Below are positions 30,401 to 46,306 of a stretch of 64,000 nucleotides of DNA, one piece after another. The stretch is taken from the NCBI GenBank assembly GCA_030068145.1, contig JAPJBO010000037.1, positions 135,001 through 199,000 on the forward strand. Reading direction: 5' to 3'. Below the pieces are notes generated by a model, which made no database searches, had not been told where the DNA came from, and worked only from the letters and a program-made list of their open reading frames with translations. Source of the DNA: Diplonema papillatum (taxonomy: Eukaryota > Euglenozoa > Diplonemea > Diplonemida > Diplonemidae). Each line of letters begins with the position of its first letter. Within the stretch, counting starts at the first letter, position 1. The position numbers were made by a program, and so were the translations under genes.

Positions 30401-32335
30401 ATGGGATGTGTGTCTGGGAAGGCGGCCGTCGTCGAGGTGCCGCCGGAAAAGAGAAGCCGCAGAAAAAGTAGCCGGATGCAGGAGACGGAAGGGTTGAGCG
30501 AGCTGACCACGTTGGGAGAGGGGTGCGAGGGGGTCAATCGAGGGTCGAAGAAAAGGAAGAAGAAGAAAAAGAAGGTAAAAAGGCCCAGCAAGCCCTCGGA
30601 GAAGGAGAAGGATCAGGACTGCGACAACACAGAGCCGGATGATTCGACCCTCCCCGGGTTCGTCACGCTGTGTGTCTCCCCGACCGAGGCTTCCGGGTTC
30701 AGCTCGTCGGATTGGACCATCAAAAAGTCAGCCAACCGCAGCACCAGCAACAACACCGGCTTCGAAGGCGACAACGGCAGCGGCGGCGGCGGCGGCGGCG
30801 GCGAAGAGGAAAAAGACGCGAACGGCGAGGCGCGCAACAGCAACAACAACAACAACAACAACAACAGTGACAGCAACGCCAACAGCAACGCCAACAGGAA
30901 CAACAACAACAACAACAACAACAACAACAACAACAACAACAACAACAACAACAACAACAACAACAACAACAACAACAACAACAACAACAACAACAACAAC
31001 AACAACAACAACAACAACAACAACAACAACAACAACAACAACAACAACAACAACAACAACAACAACAACAACAACAACAACAACAACAACAACAACAGTG
31101 ACAGCAACGCCAACAGCAACAACAACAACAACAATGCTCACAGCGCCAACCACTGCAACAACAGCAACGATAACAACAACAACAACAACAACAATACCGT
31201 CAACATCAGTGACAGCAACAATTGCAACACCAGTACCAACAACAACAATAACGGCAAAAACAACAGCAACAACAACAGCAATAACAGCAACAATACCAAC
31301 ACCACCAACAACAACAACAACAACACCAGCAACAGCAACAGCAACAACAACATCAACAAAAACGATTGCAGCAACAACCCCAGCACGAGCAACGACAAGG
31401 CGCCCGCCCCCAGCAAAGACGCGCGCCCCCCCGCCGCCGCCGCCGCCGCCTCCGAGCACACGCCGGCGCCGTTCCCCCTGCCTCCGACCGCGCAGGACCT
31501 GCTCGCGACGACGTGGCTCGACCTAGCCGGGCGGCCTGAGTTCGCGAAGGACCTCGTCCACGTCATCACGACGCTCAACCCGGCCACGAAGCCGCTGTTC
31601 GCACCGCCTGGCGCGGCCGCGAAGATCGCCGGTGCCCTGCAAGCGGGCGTCGGCTCGATCCTGGAGAGTCCGGCAAGCCCCGCCTTCCTCGCGAAGACCT
31701 TCGCCCGGATCGCGAAGGCGCACGCCGCCCACGGGGTGTCGCCGGCGCACTTCCGCGAATTCTCCCGCGCGATCCTCCACCTCCTCGAGACCCACCTGGA
31801 CCCCTTCACGCCGGCCATGCGCAACTCCTGGCAGGTCTTCGCCTCGTACCTCGCGACCCACACCGCAGCGTCTCTCCGGTGCCATCTCGCGCCAGCCAAG
31901 CCAACCGGGAAGCTGAGCGAATCCGTCGGGTCCAACCCCCTGCTCGCGCGTCCTTCCTCCTCGCTCGTCACCGCACATATGACGCCGTGGCTCGTATGGG
32001 GTTGCTCGTCCGCTGTGTGGGAGGCCGTGCTAGCGTCCGCCGCCGGGACCAGTTCCGACGTGAGTGCGGCCCTGCCAGGGGACAGGGTGCAGCTGGCCCG
32101 CGCGATCAGCGCGTGGCTGTCCGAGGTCGCGGTGCTGGACCGGAACTCGCAGGCGTGCCGGCGGCTGCTCGAGAAGCCGGCGGCGGCCCACGCCCGCCTG
32201 GGCGTCACGCTGCACATGATGCAGCACATCCTCCTCGCCTTCGCCGCGGTGCTGGGCACCGACGCGCCGAGGGCAGTCCTACAGCACGCTGAGGACCTCT
32301 CTGGGTTCCTCGACTGGGTCATGGCATCCCTTCAA
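30401..32335 (+). CDS. Globin gene exon 1: acylated N-terminus, poly-Asn, globins 1 and 2
   Basis: Starts MGCVSGK just after GGGCAG. Gly2 with small residues after it fits an N-myristoylation signal, and Cys3 could be palmitoylated. An upstream in-frame ATG at 30,389 would destroy this signal. Residues 45-75 are Lys-rich. From about residue 147 the protein is mostly Asn, including some 66 consecutive AAC codons at about 30,898-31,095. Globin 1 covers about residues 364-490, with F helix KAHAAHGVSPAHF and H helix PAMRNSWQVFASYL; E7 appears to be Ala. Globin 2 runs from about residue 525 to the end, with AAHARLGV. The donor is CAA/GTATGC at 32,336. The link between globins 1 and 2 could hide a small intron. 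Confidence 0.75.

Positions 32336-46306: not shown

Follow-up and report, generated by a model that had tools for sequence, protein, structure and literature searches.

The question raised by this locus is whether a series of open segments on the plus strand of a 64,000-nucleotide stretch of Diplonema papillatum DNA (the window) encodes a single polypeptide in which several globins are followed by a cytochrome b5 domain, as an initial annotation had proposed. Judged from the sequence, this multi-globin and b5 observation largely holds and is partly confirmed.

Gene Model and Splice Junctions

When exons 1 to 5 (E1-E5, Table 1) are joined, they give 1480 codons without a stop; every exon is open, in phase 0 and on the plus strand, and all the motifs named in the initial annotation were found in the plus-strand translations, bearing out its description of the exons. 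The full model comprises six exons (30401-52336, plus strand) encoding 1489 aa with b5 as the C-terminus, the E1-E2 link and the sixth exon (E6) being predicted parts of it. The start codon of E1, its splice site, and its membership in a shared gene with E2-E6 are likewise putative. A codon score, which was trained partly on E1-E5 themselves and is not independent of those exons, lists E1, E2, E4, and E5, with segments ending within 18 bases of the donors, and also lists weaker shadows on the minus strand; E3 is below the threshold and absent from the coding list. The donor hexamer is GTATGC in E1, E3, and E4, GTCTGC in E2, and GTCTGG in E5.

GT-AG pairs near each junction were scored with a globin HMM built without window sequence. 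For E3/E4, the pair 41172/41518 was the top of 22 open pairs (42 tested; 31.4 versus 27.7), and for E4/E5 the pair 41925/45785 was the top of 12 open pairs (48 tested), with 29.2 versus 17.1 for the next; the latter scan was confined to acceptors near the final exon 5 copy, and the acceptor sequence is identical in the copies upstream of it. These two pairs, scoring best among those tested, agree with the earlier statement that two exon junctions rebuild an F helix. Donor 36184 with acceptor 40984 or 40981 ranked first and second, by small margins, among 32 open E2/E3 pairs (100 tested), and the E1/E2 scan singled out no pair. Since the junctions inside D6 and D7 are the best among the tested pairs, E2-E5 belong to one gene. 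The annotation of a single gene thus stands for E2-E5, and probably E6, but less firmly for E1, as the E1-E2 junction lies inside no recognised domain and an ATG at 34790, four codons 5' of the proposed E2 acceptor, is in frame with E2. That E1 shares a gene with E2 is only probable from the sequence: its coding segment ends at 32323, 12 bases before CAA/GTATGC, and E3 and E4 share this donor hexamer, so that E1 is probably not a terminal exon.

Table 1. Features of the globin-b5 locus, with positions counted from the first nucleotide of the window; bits are those of the globin HMM unless stated otherwise
Feature	Position	Strand	Description and basis
Exon 1 (E1)	30401..32335	+	645 aa: MGCVSGK start, basic clusters, Asn-rich tract, D1, D2; donor CAA/GTATGC, phase 0; predicted from open frame and coding score
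CAA-type repeat encoding Asn-rich tract	30835..31363	+	Inside exon 1; longest Asn run 66
Globin D1	31487..31936	+	Pfam 4.8e-10; 36.1 bits; CD1-type Phe, F8 His (KAHAAHGV), H-helix Trp
Globin-like D2 (AAAHARLGV)	31937..32335	+	15.5 bits; profile match limited to E-G part
Second copy of exon 1 3' end, in intron 1	32990..33304	+	2 base differences in 331 bases from exon 1, same translation
Third copy of exon 1 3' end, in intron 1	33607..33921	+	Identical to second copy over 331 bases
Exon 2 (E2)	34802..36184	+	461 aa: D3, D4, D5, and D6 residues 1-13; acceptor position uncertain
Segment D3, predicted helical	34802..35278	+	1.2 bits; 62 of 1000 shuffles as good
Globin-like D4 (GSRHEGYGV)	35279..35659	+	17.5 bits; 23.6 leave-one-out
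Segment D5 (GYRHPGGITADEHH; YRHPGGI)	35660..36145	+	-1.9 bits; 258 of 1000 shuffles as good
Globin D6	Spans end of exon 2, exon 3, exon 4	+	31.5 bits
Exon 3 (E3)	40981..41172	+	64 aa: D6 middle up to F helix; acceptor 40981 or 40984; from junction scan
Exon 4 (E4)	41518..41925	+	136 aa: D6 F8 His to H helix (KLHNDKGV), then D7 A-F; from Pfam globin 6e-5 and junction scan
Globin D7	Spans exons 4-5	+	29.2 bits
Five partial copies of exon 5 5' part, first truncated	43719..45567	+	Starts 43719, 44117, 44534, 44951, 45368; TRF 417 bp x 4.7, 99%
Exon 5 (E5)	45785..46306	+	174 aa: D7 F8 His to H helix (RRHGKLGV), linker, most of b5
Cytochrome b5 domain	46121..46306	+	Pfam 1.8e-21, 76.4 bits; profile 3-62 of 74; both haem-ligand His (HPGG, KVHS)
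Exon 6 (E6), proposed terminal	52307..52336	+	EFVVGDLQP and stop; completes b5

Globin Segments

To assess globin homology, we used an HMM containing no window sequence; its members were 17 metagenomic globins and three globins that belong to kinase genes at other loci of the genome. The metagenomic set grew from one protein, P0003, the only protein returned by a search (8000 candidates scored) with an alignment, A1, of D1, D6, D7, and two segments of another D. papillatum ORF (C1018, described below); as a query, this protein returned 17. Since P0003 was found via A1, the choice of globins leans slightly towards D1, D6, and D7. The HMM scores (Table 1) of D1, D2, D4, D6, and D7 were reached by none of 1000 shuffles. 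Leave-one-out HMMs, to which the window's other domains were added, gave 40.5, 14.0, 3.6, 23.6, 0.7, 38.8, and 39.9 bits for D1 to D7, with 0, 0, 41, 0, 49, 0, and 0 shuffles per 1000 as good. In hhalign with both profiles, D1, D2, D4, D6, and D7 scored above all 100 shuffles, D3 was reached by 9 and 3 of 100, and D5 by 54 and 20. As the three approaches agree, five segments (D1, D2, D4, D6, and D7) are globin beyond chance. D3 and D5 fail each of these sequence tests and may be helical segments, perhaps eroded globins. The earlier count of about seven globins, for which the Pfam Globin profile (PF00042) was also run, is therefore upheld for five segments but not for D3 and D5.

The Pfam profile matched two of the seven window segments scanned, 31430-31924 (E 4.8e-10) and 41497-41940 (E 6e-5); it gave nothing for D2 or for E5 on its own, and the scan of 35270-35686 yielded two sub-threshold unrelated matches only. 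When 3115 ORFs of at least 60 aa from the window and other loci were scanned with the globin HMM at E up to 1, all matches within the window fell in frames of this gene or of its tandem copies, including the E2 frame (14.5 bits, E 0.0047); the E3 frame and the E5-with-b5 frame were unmatched on their own. When the PDB was searched by phmmer with exon 2, the 14 matches obtained at E 10 or less were all non-significant, the best two being aminoglycoside acetyltransferases (E 0.43 and 0.47), followed by globins to D4 (E 0.62-1.1) with a glutathione transferase among them. With alignment A1, in which globins from the window are mixed with others, 237 PDB sequences were matched at an E cut-off of 1; all but one of the best 60 bear a globin name, the exception being an unnamed hypothetical protein.

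Searched against 5.8 billion proteins (8000 best candidates scored), the 1130-aa chain gave two matches with b5 in the domain list, each covering 5% of the query, so that no whole-chain relative was found among the candidates scored. Searches of the D. papillatum genome itself (271 Mb, 2910 contigs, the window being C37:135001-199000) scored only the best first-pass candidates, among which neither E2 nor E4 had a second copy: E2 recovered itself only, and E4 recovered itself and one place at E 0.35, where no globin-like frame was seen by eye among the 17 ORFs listed.

Haem-Pocket Residues and Predicted Structure

A second alignment, A2, comprised 15 sequences, namely D1, D6, D7, nine of the 17 metagenomic globins, and the three kinase-gene globins of the same genome. 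Its four invariant columns, common to D1, D6, and D7, are what we take, in the usual globin helix naming (CD1, F8, H, and E7), to be the CD1-type Phe, the F8 His, a Gly, and the H-helix Trp; in A1, the Phe column is variable. The F8 His was also assigned in D2 and D4, and the CD1 Phe only in D1, D6, and D7, so four of the seven modules have no assigned CD1 Phe; for D3 and D5, neither residue could be placed. In D2 and D4, the profile match begins downstream of the CD1 region, so that no CD1 Phe was assigned there and these segments may not bind haem. By eye, the residues aligned at E7 are Ile (D1), Phe (D6), and Ala (D7), whereas strong O2 binders have His or Gln there; all three kinase globins have Gln.

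Single-sequence AF2 placed six helices of D1 in the order expected for a globin, together with a short turn, at block pLDDT values of 56-80. The E1 part reached 50.8 pLDDT overall, with D2 blocks at about 26-53, and exon 2 was predicted as all helical at 43.1 overall, with D3 blocks of up to 65. Since D2, which is supported by the HMM, is also low, the low confidence for exon 2 says little on the folds of D2-D5.

The Cytochrome b5 Domain and Its Last Exon

The identity of the b5 domain in E5 is certain from its sequence, and the terminal b5 with HPGG and KVHS of the initial annotation was confirmed with the Cyt-b5 HMM (PF00173), both His ligands being present. The end of the gene at 46306 had to be revised: the profile stops at position 62 of 74 in E5, so the domain needs further residues, and a terminal exon is proposed downstream (Table 1). 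Continuations from AG acceptors in 46330-90000 were scored with our own b5 HMM, built from seven sequences of other genome loci, one of which (L034_188) looks like a wrong frame. Acceptor 52307 ranked first of 2075 scored sequences, including two controls without acceptor, with 84.0 bits; the next scored 82.6, and b5 with no tail 75.8. A Pfam comparison was made for the tails from 52307, the runner-up, 53451, and read-through; the tail from 52307 raised the b5 score from 79.8 to 88.0 bits and extended the match to position 73 of 74, the runner-up reaching 83.1 bits. The b5 end pattern fits one of 773 acceptors in 46307-61000, for a chance expectation of about 0.1 and an exon of nine codons only, and four of 24484 across all stretches searched. 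With the proposed E6, the PF00173 match covers the whole domain, with both His ligands.

Two other tails were rejected. The one at 53451 (83.6 bits in Pfam, 79.0 with our b5 HMM) brings extra residues into the last helix and has a coding score of -13, and read-through past 46306, which would add a hydrophobic end (VWVLFFLFFLYT), leaves b5 incomplete (79.5 bits). The model with the proposed E6 has no C-terminal membrane span. Intron 5 is 6.0 kb long and holds a reverse-transcriptase ORF (47928-48296; RVT_1 6.5e-8) and a long (TAC) microsatellite (49448-51147; about 566 units, 99% match).

Tandem Copies of Exon Ends

Near-identical arrays of exon ends, at 32990-33921 and 44039-45980, sit in the neighbouring introns, and the exon 5 copies include the acceptor site. 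In the available portion of the D. papillatum genome paper, tandem gene ends are reported, one examined array is absent from mature mRNA, and it appears that tandem copies of an exon 1 end may also occupy a 3'-UTR (PMC10161547). The intron 1 copies of the E1 end are probably outside the mRNA. The extra exon copies were considered as further globins and dismissed as such, given that array in the genome paper and given that the exon 5 copies contain no more than half a globin and are discontinuous with b5.

Comparison with Known Chimeric Globins

Whereas the initial annotation knew no precedent for this architecture, two cryptomonad proteins are of the same kind. Guillardia theta EKX33177.1 (1060 aa) and EKX39126.1 (1497 aa) are described, in the part of the source at hand, as having three globin domains apiece and a putative b5 at the N terminus, with CD1 Phe throughout and a mostly hydrophobic E7 (PMC4101818). 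The Diplonema chain resembles them in uniting several 3/3 globins with b5 in a single protist chain of comparable length, with introns inside a globin domain, and in keeping the F8 His beside a mostly hydrophobic E7. It differs, as far as a comparison by description allows, in having five to seven globins instead of three, CD1 Phe in three of them instead of all, and b5 at the C-terminus instead of the N-terminus. Multiple globins and b5 in one polypeptide are found here by sequence alone when exons 2-5 are joined, and an N-terminal b5 is not. Since the G. theta chimeras are known from that account (PMC4101818), the Diplonema chain is a variant in which globins are more numerous and b5 sits at the opposite terminus; what would be new is the globin number, the C-terminal b5, and the lineage, the kind itself being already known.

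Likenesses to other multi-domain or chimeric globins are more partial, each source again being taken from the portion available. The animal multi-domain haemoglobins of Artemia, Biomphalaria, and Barbatia also have tandem globins in one chain, but they are O2 carriers, many of them extracellular, with b5 unmentioned in that portion (PMC4503718). Flavohaemoglobin and a raphidophyte nitrate reductase with a truncated globin likewise fuse a globin to its electron supplier; however, they have a single globin and a flavin reductase in cis (PMC3820574), whereas here the partner is b5 and no FAD_binding_6 match lies on the contig among the best candidates scored. Androglobin is another large chimeric globin of flagellated eukaryotes, of about 1500 aa and with homologues reported in Euglenozoa (PMC13331133, PMC9249397), but it combines a calpain-type protease with a permuted single globin (PMC13331133), and the Pfam-scanned parts of the present model contain no calpain match. 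No paper on diplonemid globins was found by title in the open-licence literature, and the word 'globin' occurs 0 times in the main text, as available, of the D. papillatum genome paper (PMC10161547).

If expressed as modelled, the chain would have more globin modules than the G. theta chimeras (three each), with b5 at the opposite end and in a distant lineage. The design of b5 with a globin array would then have arisen or been rearranged in widely separated protists, suggesting a shared chemistry in which b5 is a built-in haem reductant, and the protein would be a candidate for NO or O2 handling in marine flagellates.

Proposed Function and Alternative Explanations

The best explanation, to which we give about an even chance, is one six-exon gene whose product would be a haem redox protein of the NO dioxygenase type that is fed by b5. 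Its N terminus would combine an MGC start of acylation type, basic clusters, and an Asn-rich spacer, followed by the five supported globins with D3 and D5 and by the C-terminal b5. We take the MGC start and basic clusters to resemble N-myristoylation and palmitoylation signals. A cytochrome b5 reductase acting in trans would reduce b5, which would re-reduce, intramolecularly, ferric haem in the globins judged competent (D1, D6, and D7), and these would turn over NO with O2. Expression, haem binding, electron flow, substrate, and membrane tethering are all presumed in this scheme. The membrane anchor of the initial annotation would change its place: a C-terminal span is absent with the proposed last exon, and only the N-terminal motif and basic clusters speak for tethering. 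No flavin domain was found in the model, and a search for FAD_binding_6 revealed no FAD/NAD reductase module in cis; the profile had 12 matches in the genome and none on contig C37 (exon by exon, best candidates only), so a reductase encoded elsewhere could act in trans. In the available part of a published account, b5 supports the NO dioxygenase activity of cytoglobin in vitro and reduces red-cell haemoglobin (PMC3820574).

The extent of the gene can be read differently. Two neighbouring genes, one consisting of E1 (MGC start, Asn-rich tract, and D1-D2) and the other running from the ATG at 34790 through D3-D7 and b5, would be compatible with any functional reading, and we regard this division as rather unlikely. 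Where genes receive a spliced leader by trans-splicing, an AG before each ATG could serve as leader acceptor; the position of that in-frame ATG and the lack of a preferred E1/E2 pair agree with such a split, as does the possible placement of exon 1-end copies in a 3'-UTR, to judge from the portion of the genome paper available (PMC10161547). However, the E1 coding segment runs almost to a donor hexamer that also ends E3 and E4, and the only plus-strand segments between E1 and E2 that the codon score lists as coding-like are repeats of the E1 end.

Other explanations concern what the chain does. It is rather unlikely that most modules are non-catalytic and the protein is a multi-globin gas sensor or scaffold, its degenerate globins holding partners or sensing O2, NO, or haem at the membrane while b5 reports redox state. 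The four modules lacking an assigned CD1 Phe, the non-polar E7 of D1, D6, and D7, and the presence in this genome of signalling globins, namely those joined to PH and kinase domains, would suit this role; but no output domain was seen in the Pfam-scanned parts (30401-31429 lying outside the scan), and b5 is an electron carrier that keeps both ligands. An oxygen store or carrier in which b5 keeps the haem ferrous is very unlikely. Nine-domain Artemia and 13-domain Biomphalaria haemoglobins exist (PMC4503718), and red-cell haemoglobin is reduced by b5 (PMC3820574), according to the portions of those sources available, yet here both marker residues occur in three modules only, E7 is non-polar, the modules are highly divergent and not uniform, and bulk O2 carriage in a single small cell has no evident need. 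We consider it just as improbable that the locus is a decaying gene for an ancestral globin-b5 protein with a degenerating middle, D2-D5. D3 and D5 have no detectable homology and exon ends are duplicated in tandem, as decay would predict; nevertheless, the joined exons are open over 1489 codons, E1, E2, E4, and E5 have clear coding scores (E3 being below threshold), and the copied D2 pieces differ from exon 1 silently only. The b5-fed redox protein could be elaborated, as an unlikely and speculative extension, into a membrane-tethered chain of seven globins and b5 in which D1, D6, and D7 would be catalytic and D2-D5 would form a structural or gas-sensing rod placing b5 to feed several globins, independent of the cryptomonad b5-first chimera.

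Other Globins of the Genome and Other Features of the Window

In three genes elsewhere in the genome, an N-terminal globin is combined with PH and protein kinase domains: C426 (L004:1-2094:-), C598 (L002:601-2109:-), and C805 (L003:1180-2253:+). In C426, the ORF is uninterrupted (Globin 5.2e-7, PH 4.1e-9, CAP-Gly 8.5e-16, and Pkinase 1.6e-60); in C598, PH falls just under the cut-off, and in C805, the kinase part was read by eye from a downstream frame. From their domain content, these fusions may be kinases that sense gas or haem and are perhaps of greater novelty than the globin-b5 chain, and a title search of the open-licence literature returned nothing on them. C1018 (L005:538-2196:+) is an ORF of 553 aa in which one clear globin (Pfam 4.4e-9) is preceded by a second, weaker globin-like segment (11.5 bits, reached by 0 of 1000 shuffles, the best shuffle scoring 9.8).

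The window also contains a 56-bp satellite at 26124-29414 (about 59 copies, 99% match), eukaryotic LSU rRNA fragments from different parts of the molecule at 17726-17880 (plus strand) and 63725-64000 (minus strand), and a calmodulin-like EF-hand exon at 3352-3645 (EF-hand_1 1.8e-24).
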